In this document: one piece after another, positions 3,004 through 37,992 of the stretch
Layout: the number at the start of each line of letters is the position of its first letter
Numbering within the stretch: the first letter of the stretch is position 1
Source of the DNA: Oscillospiraceae bacterium
Lineage (GTDB): Bacteria > Bacillota > Clostridia > Oscillospirales > Oscillospiraceae
Direction: 5' to 3'
DNA length: 43,178 nt
Assembly (NCBI GenBank): GCA_902775355.1
Contig: CACYLY010000046.1
Coordinates: forward strand, 1 to 43,178
Translations under genes and position numbers: made by a program
The notes under the pieces: generated by a model
Database searches by the model: none
What the model was told of the DNA's origin: nothing
What the model saw: the letters and a program-made list of their open reading frames with translations, nothing else

Positions 3004-3885
3004 TCAGAAGATGTCCTCGACCACCTTGGTGGGCGGCGTCTCCAGGATCTCCGGGTGCGCGAACATGTACTGATAGGCCTGGAAGAACTGGGCGTAATAG
3101 TGCCCGTCCACAATGCCCTCGTCCACCACGGCCTTGGCGTCCACATACTTGCGGGAGACCACGTTGCCCCGGCGGTCCAGCTCGTAGGCGTGGCGCTTGG
3201 GACCGAAGGCGATGAACACCGGCAGAGTGCCGAAGTTGTATATGTGATGATATACGGGACCCAGACGAAGGGAGCCCAGATCCGTGATGATCATGGAGCC
3301 GTGGAAGGGGCTCACGTCCAGCAGAGACTGGGGGATCCAGCCGTAATAGTCCATGATGCGGAGGAGGCCGATGCCGGCCCGCAGCACAAAGCGGGGCAGG
3401 TGGGCGGCGAATTCCGCAACGTTTTCCGTGCCGTTGTTGTCGTCCGAGGTCTTGATCTCCTCGATCTTCTCGTTGAGCTTGCGGTACACGTCAAAAATCG
3501 TGTCCGTGGGCTCGAAGACCACCTTGATGGTGGTTTCGGTGGCGTCCACGCTCAGCTCCCGCTTGACGGTCATGACGATCTCGATGTTGTTGCGGGCGTA
3601 GATCCGGCGGCCTACCACGAAGCGGTTGATGCCCGGCAGCATGGAGATGGCCCGGATATGGCAGGCGATGAAAAAGTGCAGGATGCCGATGCCCTTGTAG
3701 CCCTCCAGCCGGAGAGCGCGCAGGCGGCGGTCCACCTCGGTGACCTCCATGGCCTCTTCATAATGGACATAGCGGTCGTTGCGCTGGGGCATGATAAAGG
3801 GGATGAATTTGTTGAAAGCGGGCAGGGAACGGAGCAGCCGCCCCTCCTTGCGGTCGCCGAAACGGCGTCTGTATGTGCTGGCCAT
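3004..3885 (-). CDS. Stand-alone 2-oxoacid dehydrogenase E2-like acyltransferase domain
   Basis: 293-residue protein resembling only the catalytic (chloramphenicol acetyltransferase-fold) domain of dihydrolipoamide acyltransferases, with no lipoyl or E1/E3-binding domain and no E1 or E3 gene nearby. Matching regions are the FNKFIPFIMPQRND start, the GIGILHFFIACHIRAI helix, and SMIITDLGSLRLGPVYH, which aligns with the E2 'tisNlG' strand. The E2 active-site motif D-H-R-x-x-D-G appears as D255-E-G-I-V-D-G261, so the catalytic His is replaced by Glu256. Known E2 chemistry therefore looks unlikely; a different acyl transfer or a binding role is inferred. ATG at 3885 preceded by GGAGG. Confidence 0.75.
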   Translation of the reverse strand: MASTYRRRFGDRKEGRLLRSLPAFNKFIPFIMPQRNDRYVHYEEAMEVTEVDRRLRALRLEGYKGIGILHFFIACHIRAISMLPGINRFVVGRRIYARNNIEIVMTVKRELSVDATETTIKVVFEPTDTIFDVYRKLNEKIEEIKTSDDNNGTENVAEFAAHLPRFVLRAGIGLLRIMDYYGWIPQSLLDVSPFHGSMIITDLGSLRLGPVYHHIYNFGTLPVFIAFGPKRHAYELDRRGNVVSRKYVDAKAVVDEGIVDGHYYAQFFQAYQYMFAHPEILETPPTKVVEDIF

Positions 3886-3918
3886 GAAGTACCTCCGGTA
3901 TGATGATCGTTCGAAAGG

Positions 3919-3947
3919 ATTATAGCCCCTGCGCGGGGAGATTACAA
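3919..3947 (-). promoter_or_regulatory. SigA promoter for the E2-like gene
   Basis: Minus strand: TTGTAA, 17-nt spacer containing CCCC-GCGCA-GGGG, TATAAT. It lies between the end of the dnaC-like gene and this gene, so the E2-like gene is separately transcribed. Confidence 0.8.
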
Positions 3948-3957
3948 GCGGGAATTG

Positions 3958-4950
3958 TTATGTGTTCAGCAAACGGCGGATATCTGTGCCCGAGAAGGGG
4001 AGAAGGTAGAATTCCCCGTCCAGCCGCGAACAGATCTGCGGGCTGTAGCGGCGCCGGAGCTCTTCTTCCTTGCAGTTGGTGGAGATGATGATGCGCCGGC
4101 CGTTCACCAGCCGGGTGTTCAGCAGGGTGTAGAGCGCGCTGACGGAATAGGGCGTCAGCATCTCGGTGCCCAGATCGTCCAGGATCATGAGATCGCAGCT
4201 GAGCATCTGGCGCACCCGGCGGGCGGCTTTCTCCGCCTCCTCCGGGTCCCGGGCGAACTTCTGCCGCTCAAAAGCGTCCAGCGCGGCGGCCGCGCTGTCA
4301 TAGCACACGGAGAAGCCCTTGGCGGCCACCACCCGGGCGATGCAGGCCGAGAGATAGGTCTTGCCAAGGCCGGTATCTCCCTGGAGAAGCAGGTTGGACG
4401 AGACTTTGGGAAAATTCTCGGCAAATTTTTTGCAGGCGTTGAAGACGAGGGTCATGGTTTCCCGGTCGGAAGCGCCGCCGGGAACGGGAGCGTCGCTGTA
4501 ATAGGAGAGATTGAAGTGATCGAAGCTCTCGTCTCCGTTTCGCAGCAGCACCCCCAGGTCCTTGGTCACCTCCTGGTTGTAGAGCCGGTGCAGGCATTCG
4601 CAGGGGGCGCCGTTGAAGATCCCGGTGTCCCTGCACTTGGGGCAGCTGCAGATCTCGTCCAGATAATCCACGTCCCAGCCCTGCTCCACCAGCAGCTCCG
4701 CCCGGCGGACCTGCAGGTCCAGGTTTTCTTTTTTCAGTTCCTCGATGCGCTCGGTCAGGTCGCTGCGGCGGGAGAGGGTCAGGCGCACCAGCTCCGCCAT
4801 CTGGGCGCGCATCCGCGCGTCGATCCGCTGGATCTCCGGCACCCTGGCATAGGCCGCGGCAAGGCGGCGCTGCTGCTCGGCCTGATTGGCGGCCCGGCGG
4901 GCTTCCAGCTGCTCTCTGGCCCGGGCCAGCAGTTTTCCGTCATAGGGCAT
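3958..4950 (-). CDS. DnaC/DnaI-like helicase-loader ATPase
   Basis: 330-residue AAA+ protein of the DnaI/DnaC/IstB group, expected to load the replicative helicase DnaB onto primed or origin DNA. The N-terminal part (1-95) is helical and charged. A Cys cluster C101-x-C-x-x-C...C117-x-C119 suits the zinc-binding region of DnaI. Walker A is GDTGLGKT (191-198), Walker B is LMILDDLG (254-261), and the sensor region reads IIISTN. It follows the DnaD-domain gene with an 11-nt gap, so the two form a replication-restart or initiation operon. IstB is the main alternative, but no IstA transposase is nearby and the zinc cluster favours DnaI. Confidence 0.88.
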   Translation of the reverse strand: MPYDGKLLARAREQLEARRAANQAEQQRRLAAAYARVPEIQRIDARMRAQMAELVRLTLSRRSDLTERIEELKKENLDLQVRRAELLVEQGWDVDYLDEICSCPKCRDTGIFNGAPCECLHRLYNQEVTKDLGVLLRNGDESFDHFNLSYYSDAPVPGGASDRETMTLVFNACKKFAENFPKVSSNLLLQGDTGLGKTYLSACIARVVAAKGFSVCYDSAAAALDAFERQKFARDPEEAEKAARRVRQMLSCDLMILDDLGTEMLTPYSVSALYTLLNTRLVNGRRIIISTNCKEEELRRRYSPQICSRLDGEFYLLPFSGTDIRRLLNT

Positions 4951-4961
4951 AGGCGTGTTCC

Positions 4962-5891
4962 TCAGATCTGTTCAAGTATTTTTCGAAGTGCGGCAGGATC
5001 GACCGGCTTGTTGTCCTGTTTGGAGGGCAGGGGATCCTTGCCTCTTGCGCGGGGCGGCTCCTTTTCCAGGATCTCCGCGGGGCTGTGCAGACCCTTCTGG
5101 TGCCAGCTCTGCAGGATCCTGCTCAGGTAGTTCCACTTGAGAGCGCCGGTGTTGGTGACGGTCCGGTCGGCGGCGATGGCGATGGCCTCCTCGCCGAAGC
5201 CCTGCTCCAGCCAGGTGTTCACGTCCTTTTCCTGGGTGGAAGAGAACTCCGACAGATGCAGCGCTTCCCGGATGCGGCCCAGATCGCTGTGCCGCTCCCG
5301 GCGGCTGCGGATGTATTCCTCCGCCTGCTCCAGGGTCAGGATCTCCCGATTGGCCCAGGCGTAGGCCTCCTTTTCCAGGAAGCGGGGGGTGGGCCGGCGG
5401 CTGTCCCCGTAGCGCCACTGGCAGAGCTCGGCGCAGAAGTGCAGCAGTTCCAGGATCACCTCCGGCGGCATGCCCAGATGGTCGTAGATCCCGAAGAGCA
5501 CCCGCAGGTCGTTGCCGCCCAGAGCCCGGCCCATGACCTGGGCCGCCTCGGCATAAATGGTCGTCAGCGCGGAATTCCCGCCGGAGCGGCGGCGGATCTC
5601 CTCGGAACTGTACTGGGGCAGCTCCTCCGCCGGCGCGGGCTCCGGCTTCCCCGGCGCGGGAGTCCCGGCGGGAGCCGGGAGAGGCTCCGGAAGCGCCATC
5701 CGCCGCAGCTTCTCCTCCGCCGCAAGGACTTCCTGCAGGGTGAGACACAGAGCGGCCGCCGCTTTTTCCGCATCCAGACTGCCGCTGCGCTGCCAGTAGA
5801 GCCACAAAAGGGCCACGTTCCCGTCATGGGCGGCGATGAGCCTGTCCAGCGCCTGGATCGATATGGACTTGTGCGCAGTCTGATCCGCCAT
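4962..5891 (-). CDS. DnaD-domain replication initiation protein
   Basis: 309-residue protein with a DnaD/DnaB-type C-terminal domain (about 185-255, including AYAWANREILTLEQAEEYI) and an N-terminal winged-helix-like part (about 5-70). A Pro/Ala-rich linker at about 75-100 joins them. In Firmicutes such proteins remodel DNA with DnaA/PriA and recruit the DnaI-DnaB complex; the adjacent downstream dnaC-like gene fits this. The ATG at 5891 was chosen because GAAGGAG lies seven to eight bases upstream; a longer in-frame start at 5990 would put the promoter inside the gene. The last third is charged and weakly conserved. Confidence 0.83.
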   Translation of the reverse strand: MADQTAHKSISIQALDRLIAAHDGNVALLWLYWQRSGSLDAEKAAAALCLTLQEVLAAEEKLRRMALPEPLPAPAGTPAPGKPEPAPAEELPQYSSEEIRRRSGGNSALTTIYAEAAQVMGRALGGNDLRVLFGIYDHLGMPPEVILELLHFCAELCQWRYGDSRRPTPRFLEKEAYAWANREILTLEQAEEYIRSRRERHSDLGRIREALHLSEFSSTQEKDVNTWLEQGFGEEAIAIAADRTVTNTGALKWNYLSRILQSWHQKGLHSPAEILEKEPPRARGKDPLPSKQDNKPVDPAALRKILEQI

Positions 5892-6064: not shown

Positions 6065-8134
6065 ATGATCGAGCTGCTTGCGCCGGCGGGTTCGCCGGAA
6101 GCGGTCATCGCCGCCGTGCAGAACGGCGCCGACGCCGTCTATTTGGGAATGGGGAATTTCAACGCCCGCCGGGGCGCCCGGAATTTCACCGACGAGGAAT
6201 TTGAAAAAGCCGTGCGCTATTGCCGCATCCGGGGCTGCAAGGTCTATGTGACCCTGAACACCCTGATCAACGACCGGGAGATCGAGCCCGCCGTCTCCGC
6301 GGCCAAGCTGGCCTCCGACCTGGGGGCCGACGGCATCATTATCCAGGATCTGGGCCTGATCAAGGCCATCCGCTCCGCCCTGCCGGACATCCCCCTTCAC
6401 GCCAGCACCCAGATGAGCATCCACAATCTGGCCGGGGTCCAGGCGGCGGCGGAGATGGGCCTGACCCGGGCGGTGCTGGCCCGGGAGCTGAGCCTGGAGC
6501 AGATCAAGTTCATCACGAAGCACGCCAGCATCGAGACGGAGGTCTTCTGCCACGGCGCCCTGTGCTTCTGCTACTCCGGCCAGTGCTACATGTCCGCCCT
6601 CATCGGGCGGCGCAGCGGCAACCGGGGCATGTGCGCCCAGCCCTGCCGCATGGAGTATTCCCTCACCGGGACCATGAACGAGCACCCCCTGTCCCTGAAG
6701 GACAGCTGCCTGGCCGACCGGCTGCAGGAGCTGGAGGAGGCGGGCGTCAGCTGCCTGAAGATCGAGGGGCGGATGAAGCGGCCGGAATATACCGCCATCG
6801 TCACCGGGATCTACAGCAAGGCGCTGAAGGAGCACCGCAAGCCCACCGCCGAGGAGATGGAGCTGCTGCAGCGGGCCTTCTCCCGCCAGGGCTTCACCCA
6901 GGGCTATTTCAACGGCGACAAGAAGGACATGTTCGGCGTCCGCCAAGAGACGGAGAAGTCCGACGAGGCCATCTTCACCACCGCCCGCAAGGCCTATGCC
7001 GACGGGGAGCTGAGACGGGTGCCCGTGCATTTCTACACCGTGGTGCAGAAGGGCGAGCCCGCCAAGGCCATCGCCTTTGACGACGAGGGCAACCGGGCCG
7101 TGGCCTTCGGGCCGGTGCCCGAGCGGGCCAAGCGCCAGGGCCTTACCGAGGGCTATCTCACCGAGCAGATGTTCAAAACCGGCGGCACCCCCTACACCTG
7201 CGTGGAAAACCGGGCCAAGGCGGAGCCGGGCCTGTACCTGCCGGCGGCGGAGATCAACGACCTGCGCCGCAAGCTCATCTCCGAGCTCTCCGAGCGCCGG
7301 GCCGTGCCCCCCACCAGAAGAGTGGGAAGACTGCCCGCCATGCCGAAGAATCTGGGGGCCATCGCCGATCCCAAGATCATTTTCCAGGTCCGCAGCGAGG
7401 AGCAGCTGAGCCCGGAGCTGGCCGAGCTGAAGCCGGATTATCTCTACGTTCCCGCCCTGCTCATGGCCCGCAGGCCCGAGCTGGTGCTGCCCTTTGCGGA
7501 AAAGGGCGCCGTGCCGGTGGCCGTGCTGCCCCGGATCATCACCGATCAGCAGAGCCCCCAGGTTTTCGAGGCCCTGCAGAAGCTCTTTGACGAGGGCGTG
7601 GGCGAGGCCCTGGTGGGCAATCTGGGCCACATCTTCCTGGCAAAAAAGGCCGGGATGCGGATGCGGGCGGACTTCGGACTGAACGCCTTCAACTCCCTGA
7701 GCCTGGAGCGGCTGCGGGAGGCGGGCTTCCTGTCCGCCACGGCTTCCTTTGAGCTGCGGCTGAGCCAGATCCGGGACATGTGCAAGCCCCTGGACACGGA
7801 GATCATCATTTACGGCCGGCTCCCGCTGATGATTTCGGAGCAGAACCTGGTGAAGACCACCGTGCAGGACACGGCCCAGCTGGCCGACCGGATGGGCTCG
7901 GTGTTCCCGGTGGCCCGGGACTTCGGGGACAGGACCGTGATCTACAACGCCCACAAGCTGTACCTGGCTGACAAGAAGGAAGATCTCTACGCCACCGGCG
8001 CCTGGGGACTGCGGCTGCTGTTCACCAACGAGAGCGGACGGGAGTGCGTGGAGGTGGCCAAGGGACACCTGGGGCTCTCGGATTACCGGCCCAACGTGCT
8101 GACCAGAGGGCTGTATTACAGAGGCGTGGAATGA
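6065..8134 (+). CDS. U32 family protein (RlhA/TrhP-like RNA hydroxylation or peptidase)
   Basis: 689-residue U32-family protein. The N-terminal TIM-barrel-like part (MIELLAPAGSPEAVIAAVQN; LHASTQMSIHN) and the cysteine motif VFCHGALCFCYSGQC...GMCAQPCR near 157-195 are typical. The long C-terminal extension (about 300-689) gives it the size of the RlhA-type members. Characterised relatives hydroxylate RNA (E. coli RlhA on 23S rRNA, TrhO/TrhP on tRNA) with Fe-S and prephenate involvement; older annotation calls them collagenase-like peptidases. RNA modification is the more likely role, but substrate is not shown by sequence. Start at 6065 fits the family start; the upstream GAGGGATAGAG is a modest binding site. 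Confidence 0.87.
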   Translation: MIELLAPAGSPEAVIAAVQNGADAVYLGMGNFNARRGARNFTDEEFEKAVRYCRIRGCKVYVTLNTLINDREIEPAVSAAKLASDLGADGIIIQDLGLIKAIRSALPDIPLHASTQMSIHNLAGVQAAAEMGLTRAVLARELSLEQIKFITKHASIETEVFCHGALCFCYSGQCYMSALIGRRSGNRGMCAQPCRMEYSLTGTMNEHPLSLKDSCLADRLQELEEAGVSCLKIEGRMKRPEYTAIVTGIYSKALKEHRKPTAEEMELLQRAFSRQGFTQGYFNGDKKDMFGVRQETEKSDEAIFTTARKAYADGELRRVPVHFYTVVQKGEPAKAIAFDDEGNRAVAFGPVPERAKRQGLTEGYLTEQMFKTGGTPYTCVENRAKAEPGLYLPAAEINDLRRKLISELSERRAVPPTRRVGRLPAMPKNLGAIADPKIIFQVRSEEQLSPELAELKPDYLYVPALLMARRPELVLPFAEKGAVPVAVLPRIITDQQSPQVFEALQKLFDEGVGEALVGNLGHIFLAKKAGMRMRADFGLNAFNSLSLERLREAGFLSATASFELRLSQIRDMCKPLDTEIIIYGRLPLMISEQNLVKTTVQDTAQLADRMGSVFPVARDFGDRTVIYNAHKLYLADKKEDLYATGAWGLRLLFTNESGRECVEVAKGHLGLSDYRPNVLTRGLYYRGVE

Positions 8135-30054: not shown

Positions 30055-30474
30055 AGGGCCGAAACAGCGGGCAGGGGGCCGGGCGCTCTTCTTTTTTTGA
30101 GCGGAAGCTGTCTTTTTAAGACAAAACCGAGCCGCTTGCCCGCGGAGACCCGGCTCTTCTGCCTGCGGACGGAGAGGAGTTCGTGGTTTGCGAGGAGTGA
30201 CACCTCATCCGTCATCCGCCTCGCGGGGGATCGGCGGATGCCACCGTCCGCCTTGCGGTGCCCGGAAAAATGTTCACGCGTTCGCTTGCTCCATTTTTCC
30301 GACCGCTGCGGAAATTCCGGCCTCGCTTTTTCTGCCACCGGCAGCGCGAAGCCGCAATTCCCCTCAAGGGGAAGGCCAGGAGGGGAGCGGGAGAATGAGG
30401 AGTAGTGCATTGGAACAGAGGACAACCCCTCCGGCCTGCGGCCACCTCCCCTTGCACAGGGGAGGTCTTGAGGG
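30055..30474. repeat. Composite repeats between terS and terL
   Basis: About 420 nt without a gene. 30198-30385 is the long composite: CACCTCATCCGTCATCCGCC, GGCGGATGCCACC, GTCCGCCTTGCGGTGCCCGG, an AAAAATG...CATTTTTCC pair, GACCGCTGCGG and TTCCCC-TCAA-GGGGAA. 30424-30470 is a short form: CCTCCGGCCTGCGGCCACC + CTCCCC-TTGCACA-GGGGAG, whose end GGAGGTCTTGAGGG is the terL ribosome binding site. 30090-30160 has two weak hairpins near runs of T. Confidence 0.8.
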
Positions 30475-32004
30475 ATGAGGATCGACGGAGCGCCGGGGAG
30501 GGTCGTTTGGAGGCCCCAGGAGCGGCAGATCGCCTTCATGCGCAGGGGCGAGGATGAGGTCCTGTACGGCGGGGCAGCCGGAGGCGGCAAAAGCGACGCC
30601 CTGGTGATCGAGGCCACCCGGCAGGTGGAAATCCCCTATTACAAGGGGCTGATCCTGCGCAAGACCTATCCCCAGCTGACGGAGCTGATCGAGAAGAGCC
30701 TGCACTATTATCCCGCGGCCTTCCCCAAGGCGAAGTACAACGAGCAGAAGCATACCTGGACCTTCCCCAGCGGGGCCAGGATCGTCTTCGGCTCCCTGCA
30801 GCACGAGAAGGACCGCTTCAACTACCAGGGCAAGGCCTATGACTTCATCGCCTTCGACGAGCTGACCCACTTCAGCTTTGACGAGTACATCTACCTGAAA
30901 AGCCGCAACCGCCCCAACGGCCCGGGAACAAGGGTCTACATGCGCAGCACCGCCAACCCCGGCGGCGTGGGGCACAGCTGGGTGAAGGAGCGCTTCATCA
31001 CCGCCGGGGAGCCCATGAGCACCATCTGGGAAGAGGTGGTTGTGGTCCATCCCGACGGGCACAGCGAAAAGCAGCGCATGAGCCGGGCCTTCGTGCCCAG
31101 CACGGTCTTCGACAACAAGATCCTGCTGGAAAACGACCCCAAGTATCTGGCCAGGCTGGCAAGCCTGCCGGAGAAGGAGCGGCAGGCCCTGCTCTACGGC
31201 GACTGGGACTGCTACGAGGGGCAGGTTTTCGAGGATTTCCGGGTCGAGCCGGACATGCGGGCGGCCAACGCCGCCGGCGTGGATCTGCCCCGGGAGGAGC
31301 TGAAAAAGCAGCGGCGCTGGTGCCACGTCATCGAGCCCTTCGAGATCCCGGCGGGCTGGAAGATCTGCCGCAGCTTCGACTGGGGCTACAACCGGCCCTT
31401 TTCCGTGGGCTGGTGGGCCGTGGACTTCGACGGGACAGTGTACCGGATCCTGGAGATGTACGGCTGCACGGAGACGCCGAACACCGGCGTCAAGTGGGTG
31501 CCGGAGCGGGTGTTCGGGGAGATCGCCCGGGCGGAGCGGGAGCACCCCTGGCTCAAGGGGCGGCGGATCGCCGGCGTGGCGGACCCGGCCATCTGGAACG
31601 CGGAGATGGGCGTGTCCATCGCGGAGACGGCGGCGAAAGCGGGCGTGTACTTCGAGAAGGGCGACCACCAGAGGATCCCCGGCTGGATGCAGCTGCATTA
31701 CCGGCTGGCCTTCGACGAAAACGGCTTTCCGCGGATGTACGTGTTCAACACCTGCAGGGCTTTTATCCGCACGGTGCCGACGCTGCAGTATGACACGGCC
31801 AGGCCCGAGGATCTGGACACGGCGGGCGAGGACCATGTGGCCGACGAGACCCGGTATTTCCTCATGAGCCGCCCCATCCAGCCCAGACAGCGTGCAATGC
31901 CCGACAAATTCAACACGGGGCCCCTGCACCTGTTCCTGGACATTCAGGAGAAAGACCTGGCAAGGGCGGAGGCGAGACCGAAAATGGAGGTTTTGAAGAA
32001 ATGA
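30475..32004 (+). CDS. Terminase large subunit (TerL)
   Basis: 509-residue packaging motor. ATPase domain: Walker A GGAAGGGKS (32-40) and Walker B FIAFDE (D128, E129), with a coupling motif near MRSTANPGG. Nuclease domain: RSFDWGYNRPFSVGWW (about 300), and ADPAIW (about 368), giving the metal-binding acidic residues of the RNase H-like fold. It cuts concatemers and pumps DNA through the portal, whose gene starts inside the terL stop (ATGA). ATG 30475. Confidence 0.95.
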   Translation: MRIDGAPGRVVWRPQERQIAFMRRGEDEVLYGGAAGGGKSDALVIEATRQVEIPYYKGLILRKTYPQLTELIEKSLHYYPAAFPKAKYNEQKHTWTFPSGARIVFGSLQHEKDRFNYQGKAYDFIAFDELTHFSFDEYIYLKSRNRPNGPGTRVYMRSTANPGGVGHSWVKERFITAGEPMSTIWEEVVVVHPDGHSEKQRMSRAFVPSTVFDNKILLENDPKYLARLASLPEKERQALLYGDWDCYEGQVFEDFRVEPDMRAANAAGVDLPREELKKQRRWCHVIEPFEIPAGWKICRSFDWGYNRPFSVGWWAVDFDGTVYRILEMYGCTETPNTGVKWVPERVFGEIARAEREHPWLKGRRIAGVADPAIWNAEMGVSIAETAAKAGVYFEKGDHQRIPGWMQLHYRLAFDENGFPRMYVFNTCRAFIRTVPTLQYDTARPEDLDTAGEDHVADETRYFLMSRPIQPRQRAMPDKFNTGPLHLFLDIQEKDLARAEARPKMEVLKK

Positions 32005-34196
32005 GCGTAAAAAAGCGGGAAGAGAAAAAGAGAGCTCTGGCGACCGAAGGTCGCCCCTACGGGGAGGGGACGCGGGCGACCGCAAGGGTCGCCCCTACGG
32101 CAGACGGCGGGCGATTCGTGAATCGCCCCTACGGCGCGGGCGTGGGGATGCCGCCTGCGGCGGGGACCTCATCCGGCGCAAGCGCCACCTTCCCCGTGCG
32201 CGGGGAAGGCATGAGGGCCGCCGGGGGCGTCGGCCCCTACGAGGGCGAAGGGACGCGGGCGACCGCAAGGGTCGCCCCTACGGCAGACGGCGGGCGATTC
32301 GTGAATCGCCCCTACGGCGAGGAACGACGGGACGCCGGGGGCGAAGGAACGCGGGCGACCGAAGGTCGCCCCTACGGCGTGGGGACGCGGGCCGCCGAGG
32401 GCGTCGGCCCCTACGGAGTGGGGAAAGACGCCGGTGCGGATAGGACGGAGGGATCTGAACCTTCCGAACTCCGAACTCCGAATTCCGAATTGACTTTGCC
32501 CATCGGTGAGAAGGAAGTGGAGGAGGCCTATCAGACCTTGCTGAACTACCGGGCGGGAAAGGCCAATCTGGAAAAGCGCCTGGTGGAGAACCAGCAGTGG
32601 TACAAGCTGCGGCAGTGGGAGTGCATGCGGCGCAAGAGCGGCGAGGTGGAGCCCGCCTCCGCCTGGCTGCTGAACGCCATCGCCAACAAGCACGCCGACG
32701 CCATGGACAACTTCCCCGCGGCCCACGTGCTGCCCCGGGAGGAGGGGGATCGGGAGGAGGCCCGGATGCTCTCCGGGATCCTGCCGGTGGTGCTGGAGGC
32801 CTGCGACTTTGAGGAGGTCTACTCCCGGGCCATGGACGACAAGCTGGAGAGCGGCACCGGGGTCTTCGGCGTGTTCTGGGACCCGGCCAGGCTCAACGGT
32901 CTGGGGGACATCGACATCAGCGCCGTGGACCTCATCAATCTCTTCTGGGAAAACGGCGTCAGCGATATCCAGCAGAGCCGGAACCTCTTCTATGTGACGC
33001 TGCGGGACAACGACCTGCTGGAGCAGGATTACCCCCAGCTGAAGGAGCGGCTCAGCGCCCCGGCCCTGGACGTGAACCGCTATTTCTACGACGACGCGGT
33101 GGACACCCAAAATAAGAGCGCGGTGGTGGACTGGTACTACAAAAAGCGGGACGCCGCCGGGCGGACCCGGCTGCACCTGTGCAAATTCGTGGCGGGGATC
33201 AGCGAGCCCCTCTTCGCCTCGGAGAACGACCCGGCCTACGCGGAAAAGGGCTGGTACGCCCATGGGCTCTATCCCTTTGTCTTCGACCCGCTGCTGCGCT
33301 GCAAGGGCAGCCCCGCGGGCTTCGGCTTCCTGGACGTGGGCAAAAACGCCCAGGAATTCATCGACCGGGGAGACCAGGCCCTGCTGCAGAACATGCTCTT
33401 CAACGCCCGGCCCCGGCACTTCATCCGCGCGGACGGCTCGGTGAACGAGGAGGAATTTGCCGACGCCTCCCGGGACTTCATCCATGTGGACGGCAACCTG
33501 GGCGGGGACAGCATTTTGCCTGTGCAGCCCAACCCGCTGAACCGGCTGTATCTCACCATCCTGGAGAACAAGGTCCAGGAGCTGAAGGAGACCACCGGAA
33601 ACCGGGACGTGTCCAACGGCGGCACCACCGGCGGGGCCACGGCGGCCAGCGCCATCGCCGCCATGCAGGAGGCGGGCAGCAAGCTCACCCGGGACTGCAG
33701 CATGGGCTCCTACCGGGCCTTCCGCAAGGTGCTGCTGCTGTGCATCGAGCTGATCCGGCAGTTCTACGACGTGCCCCGCTGCTTCCGCATCCTGGGCCAG
33801 GGCGGCGCGGAGGACTTCGTGCGCTACTCCAACCGGGGGCTGCGGCTGCAGAGCGTAGAGGGGGAGGAGGCCTGGCGGCTGCCCCTCTTCGACATCCGGG
33901 TCACGGCGGAAAAGCAGAGCCCCTACAGCCGCATGGCCCAGAACGAGCTGGCCCTGCAGCTCTACGGCGCGGGCTTTTTCGCGCCCCAGAACGCCAGGGC
34001 CGCCCTGGCCTGCCTGGACATGATGGACTTCGACGGCAAGGACTTCGTGCTGCGCGCTATCCGCGCCAACGCCAGGGAGGCGGCGGCAGCGGCGGTCCCG
34101 CCCGAAGCGCCCGCCGGGGGCGGGATCCGCGGCGGCGAGGCCCCGGGAGTCCTGAAAGCCCGGCGGCAGGCCGCGGAGGCGGGAGCGCCGAGATAG
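32001..34196 (+). CDS. Phage portal protein with repeat-encoded N-terminal insertion
   Basis: 731 residues. Residues 165-731 form the portal, the dodecameric ring at the capsid vertex; size, the region LEKRLVENQQWYKLRQWE, LLNAIANKHADAMDNFP, a low-complexity GGTTGGATAASAIAAMQ and place after terL support this, with a podovirus P22-like portal as nearest guess. The ATG overlaps the terL stop (ATGA) and 13 basic residues follow. Residues 14-164 come from palindromic repeats (32040-32490) that stay in frame with no stop codon. They contain two identical 25-residue copies (21-45 and 82-106). The normal gene probably ran from residue 13 almost straight to 165. A later TTG start at 32490 is possible, but no binding site precedes it. 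Confidence 0.88.
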   Translation: MSVKKREEKKRALATEGRPYGEGTRATARVAPTADGGRFVNRPYGAGVGMPPAAGTSSGASATFPVRGEGMRAAGGVGPYEGEGTRATARVAPTADGGRFVNRPYGEERRDAGGEGTRATEGRPYGVGTRAAEGVGPYGVGKDAGADRTEGSEPSELRTPNSELTLPIGEKEVEEAYQTLLNYRAGKANLEKRLVENQQWYKLRQWECMRRKSGEVEPASAWLLNAIANKHADAMDNFPAAHVLPREEGDREEARMLSGILPVVLEACDFEEVYSRAMDDKLESGTGVFGVFWDPARLNGLGDIDISAVDLINLFWENGVSDIQQSRNLFYVTLRDNDLLEQDYPQLKERLSAPALDVNRYFYDDAVDTQNKSAVVDWYYKKRDAAGRTRLHLCKFVAGISEPLFASENDPAYAEKGWYAHGLYPFVFDPLLRCKGSPAGFGFLDVGKNAQEFIDRGDQALLQNMLFNARPRHFIRADGSVNEEEFADASRDFIHVDGNLGGDSILPVQPNPLNRLYLTILENKVQELKETTGNRDVSNGGTTGGATAASAIAAMQEAGSKLTRDCSMGSYRAFRKVLLLCIELIRQFYDVPRCFRILGQGGAEDFVRYSNRGLRLQSVEGEEAWRLPLFDIRVTAEKQSPYSRMAQNELALQLYGAGFFAPQNARAALACLDMMDFDGKDFVLRAIRANAREAAAAAVPPEAPAGGGIRGGEAPGVLKARRQAAEAGAPR
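32037..32493 (+). repeat. Palindromic repeats inside the portal coding sequence
   Basis: A string of GCGACC-GCAA-GGGTCGC-CCCTACGG and GCGATTCGTGAATCGC-CCCTACGG units (six or more), a TTCCCCGTGCGCGGGGAA hairpin module (about 32187-32208), a GGGCCGCC...GGCCCCTAC unit (two forms) and an AACTCCGAACTCCGAATTCC tail (about 32465-32490). All of these families occur between genes elsewhere. The segment 32061-32135 is repeated nearly identically at 32244-32318. Confidence 0.9.
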
Positions 34197-34197
34197 T

Positions 34198-34335
34198 TCT
34201 GCGTTTTCAGAGTTCAGAATGCAGTGTTCAGAGGACGAGGGGAAGGATTGCCGCACCGTAGGGAGCGTGCCTGCATGCCTCCGGAAACACGGAGCGATCA
34301 GGGGATCGCTCCCTACGGTTCGCAAGGACAGACAG
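34198..34335. repeat. Composite repeat downstream of the portal gene
   Basis: Starts with a TCAGAGTTCAGAATGCAG low-complexity piece, then the framed unit GGATTGCCGCACC ... GGTTCGCAAGGACAG, whose inside carries GCATGCC TCCGGA and GGAGCGATC-AGGG-GATCGCTCC-CTACGG palindromes. Confidence 0.8.
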
Positions 34336-34344
34336 GAGGAGCGA

Positions 34345-34683
34345 ATGGTTAGTGTTCGGTTTGAGCAGGACCGGGAGCGGGGCTTTCTGAGCATGGAGCT
34401 GGTCGGACACGCGGGCTTTGCCCAAATGGGGAAGGACCCGGTGTGCGCCGGGGCCTCTGTGCTGGCCATGACCCTGGCCCAGTGCGCGAAGGCCATGGAG
34501 GAGGCCGGGAGACTGCGGGAAAAGGCCCATATCCTCCTCCGCGGCGGTCGGGCGCTGGTGACGGTGAAGCCCCGGGAGGGCTTTCTCGACGAGGCCCGGC
34601 ACCTGTTCTGGGTGGGCGAGACCGGCCTGCGGCTGCTGGCCGAGGCCTACCCGGGGTATATCGAAATTCAGAGCGGCGATTAG
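34345..34683 (+). CDS. Phage-encoded Prp-like cysteine protease
   Basis: 112-residue protein matching Prp (YsxB, formerly DUF464), the protease that removes the N-terminal extension of ribosomal protein L27 in Firmicutes. The signature GHAGFAQMGKDPVCAGASVL gives His22 and Cys34, the catalytic positions of S. aureus Prp; the end (ARHLFWVGETGLRLLAEAYPGYIEI) fits the family too. It sits between the portal and the scaffold, where phages usually place the head maturation protease. The scaffold and the major capsid protein both carry I-Q-L-F-A/G at residues 12-16, close to the Prp site. Inference: it processes those proteins. ATG 34345 with ACAGGAGGAG upstream. A displaced host prp gene is the alternative, but no rplU/rpmA genes flank it. 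Confidence 0.85.
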   Translation: MVSVRFEQDRERGFLSMELVGHAGFAQMGKDPVCAGASVLAMTLAQCAKAMEEAGRLREKAHILLRGGRALVTVKPREGFLDEARHLFWVGETGLRLLAEAYPGYIEIQSGD

Positions 34684-34689
34684 AAACGG

Positions 34690-34752
34690 GATCCGCTTCG
34701 CGGGGACCTCATCCACCGCAAGCGGTCCCCCTTCCCCGTGCGCGGGGAAGGC
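34690..34752. repeat. CTCATCC...CCTTCCCCGTGCGCGGGGAAGG repeat
   Basis: GATCCGCTTCGCGGGGACC, CTCATCCACCGCAAGCGG and a TTCCCC-GTGCGC-GGGGAA hairpin. The same module is translated in the portal gene at about 32150-32212. Confidence 0.75.
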
Positions 34753-34806
34753 AAAGAGGCGCTTTGAATAATTGGTTTCGCCCACCTACGGGCAGGAGGT
34801 TTTTTC

Positions 34807-35655
34807 ATGAGCAGATACGATTTGGTTTCTCTGTACGACATCCAGCTCTTTGGCGACGCGGGAGCGGGAGACGGCGCGGGAAACGGCGGGGGCAGCCCCG
34901 CGGGGCAGGAAACGGCGGCCCCCGCCCAGCCGCAGACGGGCGCGAAAGAGGCCCCGGCCCAGCGGCAGCAGGGTCGGGAGACGGCTCCCGACGCCGGGGA
35001 GCGGCAGCCAAGCGCGGACGATCGGGCGGCCCGCTTCGAGGAGCTGATCAAGGGGGAGTTCAAGGACCTCTACGATCAGCGAGTCCAGGACACCATCCGC
35101 AGACGCCTGAAGGGCAGCGAGGAGACGGCCAGACGGCTCAGCACCCTGGGCCCGGCTCTGGAGCTGCTGGGGCGGCACTACGGCGTGGACGCCGGAGACG
35201 CCGAGGCCCTGGGCCGGGCCATCCGGGAGGACGCCGCCCTGGCCCCGGAGAAGCCCCGGGCCGTCGAGGCCAGACGGCAGGAGCAGGCCAAGCGCCAGGT
35301 CTCCGACTGGCTGCGGCAGGCGGAGGAGCTCCGGGGCCGCTACCCCAGCTTCGACCTGGGGCAGGAGGCCAGGGACCCCCGCTTCCGCAGCCTGATCGGC
35401 AGCGGCGTGCCCCTGCGCACCGCCTTTGAGGTGCTGCACCAGCGGGAGATCCTGCCGGCGGCCATGGAGTACTCCGCCCGGAAGGCGGAGGAACGGCTGG
35501 CCGACAGCGTCATCGCCGGGCAGCGCCGCCCCGCCGAGGGGGCCATGGGCGGCCAGGGGCCGGTCCTCAGCAAGCGGGACGTGAACGCCCTCAGCCGGGC
35601 AGAGCGGGACGAGATCGACCGGCGCGTGGCACGGGGAGAGAAGATCCGGTTTTGA
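34807..35655 (+). CDS. Phage scaffolding protein
   Basis: 282-residue acidic/helical protein. Residues 17-75 are a Gly/Ala/Gln-rich disordered stretch, 76-220 are helical and charged (RFEELIKGEFKDLYDQRVQ; QEQAKRQVSDWLRQAEELRGRYP), and the C-terminus (LSKRDVNALSRAERDEIDRRVARGEKIRF) is basic and would contact the capsid, as in phage scaffolds. Position just before the major capsid gene supports the call. The start MSRYDLVSLYDIQLFGDAG carries I12-Q-L-F-G16, matching the site in the capsid protein. ATG 34807 with GCAGGAGG upstream. Confidence 0.85.
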   Translation: MSRYDLVSLYDIQLFGDAGAGDGAGNGGGSPAGQETAAPAQPQTGAKEAPAQRQQGRETAPDAGERQPSADDRAARFEELIKGEFKDLYDQRVQDTIRRRLKGSEETARRLSTLGPALELLGRHYGVDAGDAEALGRAIREDAALAPEKPRAVEARRQEQAKRQVSDWLRQAEELRGRYPSFDLGQEARDPRFRSLIGSGVPLRTAFEVLHQREILPAAMEYSARKAEERLADSVIAGQRRPAEGAMGGQGPVLSKRDVNALSRAERDEIDRRVARGEKIRF

Positions 35656-35656
35656 C

Positions 35657-35800
35657 AATGCGGAATTCGGAGTTCGGAATTCGGAATTGTCTCCTCGGAG
35701 GAAGAAAGGAACGGATTGCCACACCGTAGGGAGGCATGCCCACATGCCTCCGGAAGACGGCGGAGCGATCAGGGGGATCGCTCCCTACGGCGCGCAATGA
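35657..35800. repeat. Composite repeat between scaffold and capsid genes
   Basis: GCGGAATTCGGAGTTCGGAATTCGG-type low-complexity run (35659-35691), then the framed unit GGATTGCCACACC-GTAGGG...AGGCATGCCCACATGCCTCC...GGAGCGATC-AGGGG-GATCGCTCC-CTACGG-CGCGCAATGACA. Same layout as after the portal and capsid genes. Confidence 0.85.
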
Positions 35801-35838
35801 CAAATCCGTCCGACACAAGGTATGAGAGGAGAATGACA

Positions 35839-36897
35839 ATGAAGAAACTTTTCCACAGCATGTTCAGCTTTATCCAGCTGTTCGCGACCCAGACCACGAC
35901 CATGAACAGCTCCGGCAACGATCTGTCGCCGGAGATGAAGACCTACTACGACAAGCGCCTGCTGGACTACGCCTCGGCCAACCTGGTCCATGACCAGTTC
36001 GGCCAGAAGCGCCCCATCCCCAAGAACGGCGGCAAGACCATCGAGTTCCGCTCCTTCAGCCCGCTGGCCAAGGCTACCACACCCCTCACCGAGGGCGTGA
36101 CCCCCAACGGCAACCAGCTGGACGTGAAGACCGTCACCGCCACCGTCAGCCAGTACGGCGACTTCATCGTCCAGTCCGATGTGCTGGAGCTGACCGCCCT
36201 GGACAACACCATCCTGGAGGCCACCAAGCTCCTGGGCCGTCAGGCGGGCATGACCCTGGACACCATCACCAGAAACGTGCTGGTGGGCGGCACCAACGTG
36301 ATGTACGCCCCCAAGATCAACGCCTCCACCGGCGCCGAGACGGCAGTCGTCTCCCGCGCCGGCCTGGACAACACCTGCGTGCTCACCGTGAACCTGGTGG
36401 AGCAGGTGGTGGCCGAGCTGCGGGCTCAGAACGCCCCCACCATCGACGGGGACTACATCGGCATCATCCACCCCTACACCGCCTACGACCTGATGCGGGA
36501 CCCCGACTGGCGGGATCCCCACAAGTACGCCGACACCACCAACCTCTATGAGGGCGAGATCGGCAAGATCGGCGGCGTGCGCTTTGTCCAGAGCACCGAG
36601 GCCAAGATCTGGCGCGACTCCACCTGCCCCGCCCAGAGCGGCGCGAACCCCGCCTATTACGCGGTGTTTGCCTCGCTGTTCTTCGGCGACGGCGCCTACG
36701 GCACCACCGAGGTGGAGGGCGGCGGCCTGCAGACCATCGTGAAGCAGAAGGGCTCCGCCGGCACCGCCGATCCTCTGGACCAGCGTTCCAGCGTGGGCTG
36801 GAAGGCCATGAAGACCGCGGAGATCCTGCTGCCCAGCTACCTGATCCGGGTGGAGCACATGACCCGCCGTTACAGCGCCACGGCCAGCGCCAACTGA
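35839..36897 (+). CDS. Major capsid protein, N4-gp56 family
   Basis: 352 residues. The body matches the N4-gp56 family of HK97-fold capsid proteins: LLDYASANLVHDQFGQKRPIP, KTIEFRSFSPLAKATTPLTEGVTP, GDFIVQSDVLELTALDN, IIHPYTAYDLMRDPDW, NLYEGEIGKIGGVRFVQSTEAKIW and GGGLQTIVKQKGSAGTADPLDQRSSVGWKAM. The N-terminus MKKLFHSMFSFIQLFATQT carries I12-Q-L-F-A16, at the same residues as in the scaffold, and is a candidate cleavage site for the Prp-like protease. The ATG at 35839 was preferred to 35832 because GAGAGGAG lies seven bases away. Confidence 0.92.
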   Translation: MKKLFHSMFSFIQLFATQTTTMNSSGNDLSPEMKTYYDKRLLDYASANLVHDQFGQKRPIPKNGGKTIEFRSFSPLAKATTPLTEGVTPNGNQLDVKTVTATVSQYGDFIVQSDVLELTALDNTILEATKLLGRQAGMTLDTITRNVLVGGTNVMYAPKINASTGAETAVVSRAGLDNTCVLTVNLVEQVVAELRAQNAPTIDGDYIGIIHPYTAYDLMRDPDWRDPHKYADTTNLYEGEIGKIGGVRFVQSTEAKIWRDSTCPAQSGANPAYYAVFASLFFGDGAYGTTEVEGGGLQTIVKQKGSAGTADPLDQRSSVGWKAMKTAEILLPSYLIRVEHMTRRYSATASAN

Positions 36898-37265
36898 GTT
36901 CGCAGTTCGCAGTTCGCAGGAGACGAGAGAGCGGATTGCCGCGCCGTAGGGGGGCATGCCCACATGCCTCCGGAAGACGGCGGAGCGATCAGGGGCGAAG
37001 GGTCGCTCCCTACGGCGCGCAATGACAGGAACCAAGGGGGAGGGCGGGAGCTCTCCCCTGAGGGGAACGAGGGACGGAAGACACCTCATCCGTCATCCGC
37101 CTCGCGGGGGATCGGCGGATGCCACCAGTCCGCCTTGCGGTACCCGAAAAACGCATCAGGCTAACGCTGTTCTTCGCGTTTTTCGACCGCTGCGGTAAAA
37201 CCGTGCTCGCTTCATCCGCCACCGGCGGCGCGAGCCCGCTTTTCCCCTCAAGGGGAAGGCTATTA
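36898..37265. repeat. Three successive repeats downstream of the capsid gene
   Basis: A GTTCGCAGTTCGCAG run, the framed GGATTGCCGCGCC...CGCGCAATGACA unit (36934-37027), and the long CACCTCATCCGTCATCCGCC composite (37080-37262) with GTCCGCCTTGCGGTACCCG, AAAAACGC...GCGTTTTTC and GACCGCTGCGG parts. The last ends TTCCCC-TCAA-GGGGAAGGC and leads into AAGAAAGGAGATTGG, the binding site of the next gene. No gene seen. Confidence 0.85.
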
Positions 37266-37282: not shown

Positions 37283-37528
37283 ATGGCAGAGAACATGAAA
37301 AACCAGATCGACGAGGCGGCGGAGCAGGAGGAGCTGATCAGCATCCGGCTGCCGCTGACCAAGGAGCTCCAGAGCGACGTGTTCGTGCGCGTCAACGAGC
37401 GCACCTGGCTCATCAAGCGGGGCGAGACCGTGAAGCTGCCCGCCTGCGCCGTGGAGGTGCTGGAGCACGCCGAGCAGGCCACCATGGCGGGGCTGCAGTA
37501 CCAGGCGGAGCACGAGAACAAGAGCTGA
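37283..37528 (+). CDS. Small phage head-region protein, function unknown
   Basis: 81 residues, acidic N-terminus, then ISIRLPLTKELQSDVFVRVNERTWLIKRGETVKLPACAVEVLEHAE. The middle looks like a small beta domain found in proteins encoded between capsid and adaptor genes of Clostridia prophages; no function is known to me. It has an excellent ribosome binding site (AAAGGAGATTGG), supplied by the end of a repeat exactly as for aspS. Confidence 0.7.
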   Translation: MAENMKNQIDEAAEQEELISIRLPLTKELQSDVFVRVNERTWLIKRGETVKLPACAVEVLEHAEQATMAGLQYQAEHENKS

Positions 37529-37529
37529 G

Positions 37530-37992
37530 GGAATGAAGGAATGAAGGAATGAAGGAATGAAGGAATGAAGAAATGAAGGAATGAAGGAATGAAGGAATGA
37601 AGGAATGAAGAAATGAAGACCCCTTCCGGCCTCGCCGCAAGCGGCTCAGCCACTGTCCGCCTTGCGGTACCCGAAAAATGCTGCGGGCGTACGCTCTTCC
37701 TTGCATTTTTCGACCGCTGCGGAAATTCCGGGCTCGCTTCATCTGCCACCGGGCAAGACGCGGCCTTGCTTCCTGCGAGGGGAGGCAAGACGCGGCCGTG
37801 CTTTCCACGAGGGAAGGCAAGACGAGACCTTGCTTCCCCCTTAGGGGGAAGTCCCCAGTGCGCACACTGGGGAATAGGGGATAATCAATCCATCGCCGAA
37901 GGCGATACCATAATTCCTTCATTAGCGCAGCGTCTTCATTCCTTCATTAGCGCAGCGTCTTCATTCCTTCATTAGCAACGCGACTTCATTTT
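37530..37992. repeat. GAATGAAG tandem array and composite repeat block
   Basis: 37530-37620: about ten units of GGAATGAA(G). 37620-37900: CCTTCCGGCCTCGCCGCAAG, a GTCCGCCTTGCGGTACCCG...TTTTTCGACCGCTGCGG unit, three GGCAAGACG-CGGCC... steps, CCCCCTTAGGGGGAAG and CAGTGCGCACACTGGGG. 37909-37992: three copies of CTTCATT-AGCGCAGCG-T. The overall order equals that at 8131-8340 upstream of maf. No gene is seen in it. Confidence 0.85.

Follow-up and report, generated by a model that had tools for sequence, protein, structure and literature searches.

The question raised by this locus is what a gene for a Prp-type protease does in the head module of a prophage. Interest in Prp as an antibiotic target stems from its processing of ribosomal protein L27. 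The window, the whole 43,178-nucleotide stretch of Oscillospiraceae DNA analysed here, carries the gene between the portal and scaffold-like genes of a prophage head module (Table 1), and this position supports the proposal of a preliminary description that the phage brings its own Prp. In the reading favoured here, with a probability of roughly 0.86, the dedicated head-module Prp would cut the leaders of the scaffold and capsid proteins after Phe15 during assembly. What the sequences themselves display is the prp gene with its invariant catalytic residues, matching sites in the two substrates, a host L27 that is short and has no prp beside it, and the association seen from phage to phage. From these we infer that cleavage takes place, at which bond and when, and what the phage gains by it.

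Table 1. Head-module features of the window; the arrow marks the predicted cut.
Feature	Position	Strand	Details
Terminase large subunit gene	30475..32004	+	Context; profile matches
Portal gene, 5' of prp	32001..34196	+	Context; phrog_156
prp (A1)	34345..34683	+	Phage-encoded Prp-type cysteine protease, 112 aa; G21, H22, A23, G29, D31, C34, S38
Scaffold-like protein, predicted substrate	34807..35655	+	282 aa; phrog_13908, a family listed without a function
Predicted Prp site in scaffold	34837..34854	+	D-I-Q-L-F↓G, residues 11-16; 15 residues removed
Major capsid protein, predicted substrate	35839..36897	+	352 aa; phrog_1357 'major head protein'
Predicted Prp site in capsid	35869..35886	+	F-I-Q-L-F↓A, residues 11-16; 15 residues removed

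The identity of the gene product, first proposed as a Prp homologue with His22 and Cys34, was confirmed. The protein belongs to the Prp family (PF04327 / MEROPS C108), with a significant match over the full length of the Pfam profile (E 4.7e-13, 49.6 bits against a cut-off of 27, positions 1-90 of 90), and it also matches the PHROG profile phrog_4478 'peptidase' and, by profile, the solved Prps 2g0i (6.5e-17) and 4peo/7kld (1.3e-13). The catalytic pair His22-Cys34 and the residues Gly21, Gly29 and Ser38 that mark the family are all present and are unchanged in 28 of 28 aligned phage Prps; the part of a review that treats S. aureus Prp gives the same numbering and roles (PMC9405229). The gene is not of the rpmA-linked ribosomal type, in which prp lies between rplU and rpmA and L27 has an N-terminal extension. 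Downstream, the scaffold-like protein owes its name to gene order, its gene preceding that of the capsid as scaffold genes do in named phages. The capsid gene has a second in-frame ATG at 35833.

Both predicted substrates carry I-Q-L-F at residues 12-15, as had been reported, followed by G16 in the scaffold and A16 in the capsid. The pattern [LIVMY]Q.F[AG] occurs in the first 35 residues of three window ORFs (≥80 aa, with a ribosome-binding site), the third being a GTG frame outside the head module (4516-5127, VQAFA at residue 25). The preliminary description had taken the site as shifted relative to that of L27, a reading that was dropped: I-Q-L-F-A aligns residue for residue with the L-Q-x-F-A of L27 and 80alpha, as listed in Table 1 of the review (PMC9405229), and is thus in the standard Prp register (L/I-Q-x-F↓A), true site changes (LRLF↓D and similar) being found in other loci. 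During head assembly, Prp would bind the N-terminal leaders of scaffold and capsid and cut with Ile at P4, Gln at P3, Leu at P2, Phe at P1 and Gly or Ala at P1', so that each protein would lose 15 residues.

The association of leader and prp was followed across 89 homologous head modules. A capsid leader with a Prp-type site was found in all 51 loci that have a local prp, in 9 of 14 that lack it but whose host has an L27-linked Prp, and in none of the 24 with neither, a class in which the short L27 of 4 of the 22 genomes was deduced from an 88-aa frame, not read. Phage prp genes were called with our own profile because Pfam missed the divergent gene of L230, and still more divergent Prps could escape it. 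The preliminary description had named prp-less homologues that keep the motif equally well as the observation that would count against it; that search gave these 0 of 24 and 9 of 14 loci. The rule for a Prp-type site, with Y at P4 and L at P1 already added, was written before the class-level sample was drawn (35 of the 89 modules were sampled after it), and the permitted P3 residues, among them E, were settled only later; the class-level sample alone gave the leader in 5 of 5 loci with prp and 0 of 20 with neither Prp. As to the expected correlation of prp with the motif, the broad site stood (51/51), and the exact [IL]QLF[AG] turned out to be only a subset (15/51), with [LI]Q.F[AG] present in 29/51. 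The broad site is loose, shuffled leaders matching it in 11.4 of 52 cases. The strict site was scored in the first 36 residues of same-strand ORFs in prp-bearing loci. Capsid frames carried it in 89 of 118 cases and scaffold frames in 74 of 110, and it was absent from all 94 portal frames and all 551 other frames; the shared motif thus exceeds chance. A scaffold site was recognised in at least 29 of 52 prp-bearing loci. In IMG/VR, all 62 complete head modules examined had prp and 59 of the 62 the broad site; these come from the best 80 of 499 confirmed loci and are therefore near relatives of the window capsid. A single-protein scan of viral_contigs (query P0001) returned four pattern matches and no relative. 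We consider it very probable that the shared motif marks the predicted cleavage site of this Prp in both proteins.

Several loci stand outside these counts. Weak phrog_1357 matches were left out in 3 of 40 genomes of the order sample besides the own genome (G117, G211, G233) and in 8 of 45 of the class sample outside the order (G257, G263, G423, G427, G472, G510, G522, G564), as were loci missing the capsid N-terminus (such as L116, L120, L365 and L369). Twelve of the 101 parsed loci were omitted as truncated or of unknown host (L101, L102, L103, L105, L225, L239, L244, L333, L342, L355, L357, L358); six of them have the broad site (L102, L103, L105, L225, L244, L357), and among these six only L244 has a local prp. 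L111, L113 and L243 fell outside automatic parsing, and all three have prp and, by eye, a strict site.

An association of this kind could also arise if Prp were a hitchhiker and the motif an ancestral, functionless feature of the capsid proteins kept by descent. Clade clustering is strong and independent events are few: the capsid tree holds only five changes of Prp availability, and independent pairs on it gave four in the expected direction (three in some pairings) and none opposite, which is not significant (sign test, p 0.125). Descent alone is nevertheless very unlikely as the explanation, given that scaffolds and a different type of capsid protein have the motif as well, that it is missing from all 24 loci with neither Prp, including L106, a near sister of L109, and that the site class covaries between the two substrates, the P3 class of scaffold and capsid agreeing in 28 of 29 loci. 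Phage and host Prps also fall into separate groups (two label changes), which gives no sign of a recent capture.

The nine loci that have the leader and no local prp may not all be users of the host L27-linked Prp, since each of these genomes contains a further Prp elsewhere. For five (G127, G091, G190, G063, G367) the further Prp lies beside a same-family portal on another contig; no capsid gene of the family occurs within the stretch examined there, and no portal within the stretch examined around the corresponding capsid loci (L219, L224, L234, L238, L329), so that each pair may be the split parts of one phage. In G465, L330 and L349 each combine a portal and Q-type sites with the lack of a prp. 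The further Prp of this genome is part of the L328 module, whose sites are non-Q, which leaves these two as the best candidates for 80alpha-like use of a host Prp. The remaining two, L335 and L353, are ambiguous. Among the five leaderless loci of the host-Prp class, G291, G463 and G519 have the L27-linked Prp only, and G280 and G308 have one further match each, below cut-off. The omitted L239 (G226) has the scaffold site LQFFA, and neither a prp nor L27 was found in its genome; it would be an exception if the host truly lacks Prp. G163, of the class with neither, holds a second prophage (L231) with its own prp besides the prp-less, leaderless L222.

Another explanation takes the leader as a conserved signal for assembly or for chaperone binding, with Prp mainly a binding partner or chaperone and cutting incidental. 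In 80alpha an intact scaffold N-terminus is reported to be needed for capsid formation and its cleavage is not (PMC5744158), and Prp has been discussed as a ribosomal protein chaperone (PMC9405229). We regard this explanation as unlikely, because the phage Prp sequences examined retain both the His and the Cys of the dyad, because the site varies least at P1 Phe and the A, G or D after it, and because one phage (L214) encodes prp and scaffold as a single reading frame, with no internal ATG, GTG or TTG start and with the predicted site, LCRF↓D, at the junction. Five more prp-scaffold frames have a possible internal start. Binding and cutting are compatible with each other.

The preliminary description had added that the enzyme may also act on host L27, and a stronger version would have the phage Prp serve a host target, L27 or FlhB, with the capsid motif coincidental. 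L27 is the known Prp substrate, and FlhB is proposed for bacteria without a long L27 in section 3.2 of the review (PMC9405229). The host L27, however, begins M-AHKKG, short and without extension or Prp site; rplU and rpmA are adjacent with no prp between them, and both PF04327 matches of the host genome (assembly 87.5% complete) lie in prophage head modules. L27 is therefore ruled out as the target here. FlhB was rejected as well, no flhB scoring above the family cut-off in this 87.5% complete assembly (18.7 against 24.4 bits), and the distribution of the strict site in prp-bearing loci (89 of 118 capsid frames, none of the 551 other ORFs) makes either of these host targets extremely improbable. 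Supply of the protease from the host chromosome, as in 80alpha, was likewise not found in this assembly, both genomic matches being prophage-borne. Across the genus, own genome included, each of the 20 prp genes found shares its locus with a phage portal gene.

The closest known system is S. aureus Prp acting on L27 and on the capsid and scaffold of phage 80alpha (MEROPS C108), which shares the family, the catalytic residues, the site register L-Q-x-F↓A and the two substrates, with leaders of 13 and 14 residues removed against the 15 predicted here. It differs in that the S. aureus enzyme is host-encoded and essential for L27, whereas the window Prp is phage-encoded and its host has a short L27 and no L27-linked Prp. 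Laboratory E. coli is described as not cleaving the 80alpha capsid and scaffold proteins (PMC9405229). The phage of the window would thus carry its own version of what 80alpha borrows, and could mature its head in this way even where the host lacks both a long L27 and a Prp linked to it. A prp-like gene also follows the portal gene in Enterococcus phage phiFL3A (gp45, 'peptidase, domain DUF464') and in Lactococcus phages PLgT-1 and TP712, where both the scaffold and the major head protein have LQ.F[AS] leaders (assigned in TP712 by likeness to PLgT-1), but their capsid proteins are not matched by the window capsid family profile. HK97-like prohead proteases, which are of types unrelated to Prp, are likewise phage-encoded head maturation proteases, but what they take off is a long delta domain, not a short leader; delta-domain removal is described for phi12 (PMC8569155). 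The Cp-1 capsid protease, known here from section 3.1 of the review, is also a clan CR cysteine protease trimming a capsid N-terminus, but it is a different enzyme of the clan and removes about 40 residues (PMC9405229). The earlier suggestion that Prp replaces the usual prohead protease is not supported; in 80alpha cleavage itself is dispensable, an uncleavable capsid or scaffold protein still yielding viable phage (PMC5744158). A literature search recognised no description of a phage-encoded Prp acting on its own head.

Non-Q sites occur in 17 of 30 loci where the host has its own Prp and in 2 of 21 where it does not; L210 and L232 are examples of the R/N type. A doubtful but possible wider reading is that Prp is at root a phage head-maturation protease, retuned together with both substrates, and that the ribosomal Prp-L27 pair of Firmicutes was domesticated from phage. 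On this tentative reading, R/N/S-type sites, as against Q-type sites, might go with altered catalytic loops; retuning away from the L27 site might be commoner where the host has Prp; and some lineages might have fused Prp to scaffold as a self-cutting polyprotein.

The role of Prp in bacteria without a long L27 is left open in section 3.2 of the review (PMC9405229), and in this genus Prp appears to belong to prophages and to trim heads. The analysis provides a rule by which capsid leaders that are cleaved might be recognised, protease-substrate pairs whose specificities covary, and a natural protease-scaffold fusion usable in assays. Because cleavage is dispensable in 80alpha, the system is suited to asking what leader cleavage is for.

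The prophage head module of the window, contig C46 of an assembly of 2.86 Mb that is 87.5% complete, runs in the order terminase large subunit, portal, Prp, scaffold-like protein and major capsid protein, and its phage-encoded Prp very probably trims the scaffold and capsid proteins at an ordinary Prp site, as judged from sequence comparison. The Prp covers the PF04327 profile whole (49.6 bits against a cut-off of 27), and its G21, H22, A23, G29, C34 and S38 agree with the S. aureus Prp numbering in the accessible part of PMC9405229. A profile of 28 phage Prps, with M1, G21, H22, G29, C34, S38 and G94 invariant in 28/28, matches the solved Prps 2g0i (6.5e-17), 2idl (8.3e-16), 4peo/7kld (1.3e-13), 7jvs (1.3e-11) and 1s12 (2.1e-7).

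Genes of the prophage head module in the window
Feature	Position	Remark
terminase large subunit	30475-32004	prophage head module
portal	32001-34196	prophage head module
Prp	34345-34683	PF04327 match
scaffold-like protein	34807-35655	prophage head module
major capsid protein	35839-36897	prophage head module

Repeats were also noticed in this prophage. The portal frame starts with in-frame repeat units (RPYGEGTRATARVAPTADGGRFVNRPYG and similar, 32032-32410) before the matched portal domain, possibly a repeat insertion or a wrong start. Direct repeats, several families of which are common to more than one spacer, lie between the genes (30199-30376, 34301-34330, 35709-35802, 36929-37260, 37649-37787), and an 8-base unit (AAGGAATG) forms a tandem array at 37528-37616, directly past the gene at 37283-37528.

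Residues 12-15 read I-Q-L-F in both the scaffold and the capsid protein; residue 16 is G in the scaffold and A in the capsid. The preliminary description read this as a shifted motif, but the sites stand in the standard register (P4 I or L, P3 Q, P2 any residue, P1 F, P1' A or G) of the L27 site LKLNLQFF/A (slash, cut) and of the sites listed for the 80alpha scaffold and capsid proteins in Table 1 of PMC9405229, as far as that source is accessible. The accessible part of PMC5744158 places the 80alpha cuts between F and A, with 13 and 14 residues removed, and reports that 80alpha with an uncleavable capsid or scaffold protein is still viable; phage Cp-1 has a clan CR capsid protease (PMC9405229, accessible part). 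Head-protein cleavage in the window's phage, with its timing and use, is something we infer. When [LI]Q.F[AG] was counted up to 36 residues from starts that have a ribosome-binding site, in prp-bearing genome and IMG/VR loci pooled, it was present in 89/118 capsid and 74/110 scaffold frames and in 0/94 portal and 0/551 other frames; 2/65 Prp frames scored, as expected of frames continuing into the scaffold.

Head modules were gathered by the window's capsid family, phrog_1357, from 60 genomes of relatives, 217 of the order and 393 of the class, the class sample being drawn after the rule was put in writing. Host Prp and L27 were located with PF04327 and PF01016, the capsid start was picked by its ribosome-binding site, and the stretch from start to conserved core was searched for a leader with the broad site [LIVMY][QRNKHSDATCGE].[FL][AGDSE]. 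Among 101 loci parsed, 89 had complete context and a known host. The leader was present in 51/51 loci with a local prp (the host has an L27-linked Prp for 30 of them and lacks it for 21), in 9/14 that lack a local prp in a host with an L27-linked Prp, and in 0/24 with neither (22 genomes; two host families supply 12 and 7 of these loci). Phage or host Prp versus neither thus gives 60/65 versus 0/24 (Fisher 3.7e-17) and, for phages lacking a local prp, host Prp versus none gives 9/14 versus 0/24 (Fisher 1.2e-5); the class sample alone gives 5/5, 5/10 and 0/20. For [LI]Q.F[AG] the three classes score 29/51, 6/14 and 0/24. The exact motif [IL]QLF[AG], which the preliminary description suggested testing for correlation with prp, is found in 15/51, 2/14 and 0/24: it is absent where neither Prp is present, but it marks only a subset of prp-bearing loci, and leaders do persist in part of the loci without a local prp whose host has an L27-linked Prp. 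Shuffled leaders reach the broad site in 11.4/52 versus 52/52 observed, and [LI]Q.FA in 0.07/52 versus 29 (the 52 include L244, of unknown host). Having no leader, the capsid proteins in the neither class start 12-18 residues ahead of the core, and predicted mature ends of leader-bearing ones lie 7-33 residues ahead of it.

The 14 loci without a local prp, in hosts with an L27-linked Prp, are a mixed class. All nine leader-bearing ones are in genomes with an extra Prp above cut-off beyond the L27-linked one, and the five leaderless ones are in genomes with the L27-linked Prp only or with an added below-cut-off match (G280, G308), so that these data do not demonstrate a host Prp serving these phages. 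For five loci (L219, L224, L234, L238, L329) the extra Prp adjoins a same-family portal on another contig, whose fetched stretch includes no capsid gene of this family, and these may therefore be split phages, the alternatives being rearranged prophages or assembly effects. Their genomes (G127, G091, G190, G063, G367) hold portal-prp contigs (L458-L462, L465) and portal-less scaffold-capsid contigs. L330 and L349, both of G465, have a portal but lack prp, and their sites are of the Q type, as in L27 of the host; of the nine they seem closest to 80alpha. The other two are L335 and L353. The contrast of 51/51 with 0/24 is independent of this class.

Kinship limits how these counts can be read: Prp availability has to change just 5 times on the capsid tree, and the independent pairs number 4 (3 in some pairings) for and 0 against, where significance is unreachable. 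The clearest case, from the window's genus, sets L106 (no prp, no leader) against its near sister L109 (prp, LQFF/A). In the Prp tree (87 columns, weak support) phage and host Prps fall in separate groups with 2 label changes and one host row (L278) among the phage rows, which speaks against a recent capture of the phage prp.

The arrangement recurs among other phages. From the best 80 of 499 confirmed IMG/VR loci, fetched with a capsid alignment, 79 were parsed and 62 were complete; these carry prp in 62/62, the broad site in 59/62, [LI]Q.F[AG] in 55/62 and a scaffold site in 58/62, the three exceptions to the broad site having LQLFV (L414, L416) or LQTFT (L422). The 17 incomplete contigs from the same best 80 show the broad site in 16 and prp in 6. 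Enterococcus phage phiFL3A (gp45 'peptidase', DUF464) and Lactococcus phages PLgT-1 and TP712 likewise have a prp-type gene past the portal, and their scaffold and major head proteins bear LQ.F[AS] leaders, but their capsid proteins do not match the window-family profile. The phiFL3A major tail protein (L371:9917-10291) begins MKKLDLQLLAGEP and is a possible third Prp substrate. L457 represents another head-module type, which has prp but neither a portal nor a capsid gene belonging to the window's family; near its prp, ORFs 3686-4516 and 6247-7152 begin MRKMDLQLFG and MKKYLNLQLFA. Comparison thus makes head trimming by a phage-encoded Prp a well-supported prediction, of which no description was recognised among the papers listed in the literature searches.

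Action on host L27, considered possible in the preliminary description, found no support. In the window's own genome rplU adjoins rpmA with no prp between (L21 frame end 1456, L27 ATG 1498, positions of L003), and L27 begins M-AHKKG. All 21 L27 N-termini read in the genus, including this one, are short, and 20/20 prp genes of the genus, including the genome's two, share their locus with a phage portal; L27 therefore cannot be a target here. PF04327 matches occur in 16/36 relatives within the genus, some of them incomplete genomes, and the genome's second match is in a prophage fragment on contig C82 (portal-prp-scaffold-capsid) with sites IQLF/G and IQLF/A. FlhB, the other proposed Prp target, gave no match above cut-off in this genome.

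In some loci no stop codon separates protease and scaffold. L214:7680-8618 holds both in one open frame; the junction reads LDLCRF/DGE, and no ATG, GTG or TTG stands in frame between residues 102 and 149. L211:2978-3937 is similar but has a GTG that might serve as a start. The stop is also missing in L221, L228, L453 and L374, a faecal phage record, but these have an ATG just ahead of the site.

The two substrates also vary together. A scaffold site was recognised in at least 29/52 prp-bearing loci (L228 and L334 also have one by eye), and scaffold and capsid sites agree in P3 class (Q or not) in 28/29 loci, except L244, and in P1' class (A or G, or not) in 28/29, except L212; 0/20,000 shuffles, which ignore kinship, reached either agreement, and independent pairs give 4/4 for P3 (p 0.125). 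P3 agrees in 55/61 IMG/VR loci from the best 80 of 499. Two unusual Prps were also seen: that of L097:11354-11770 has an insert, AAPPSPQGEGLGG, in its His-Cys catalytic loop that appears repeat-derived, and L230:5351-5743, in a host without L27-linked Prp and with LQLFA sites in the neighbouring scaffold and capsid, is a strongly diverged Prp-like gene with a long loop, GHAPVPEHLRHYTKEEPPIFGSIPCC, missed by Pfam. Non-Q sites (LRLF/D, LSLF/D, LNLF/D) accompany altered Prp catalytic loops, and the short loop GHATGSxxxCA (L207, L231, L232, L235, L328) occurs with non-Q sites in 5/5. Non-Q sites make up a larger share where the host has an L27-linked Prp (17/30) than where it has none (2/21; Fisher 9e-4, kinship not corrected), an excess that would be consistent with insulation from host Prp and host L27.
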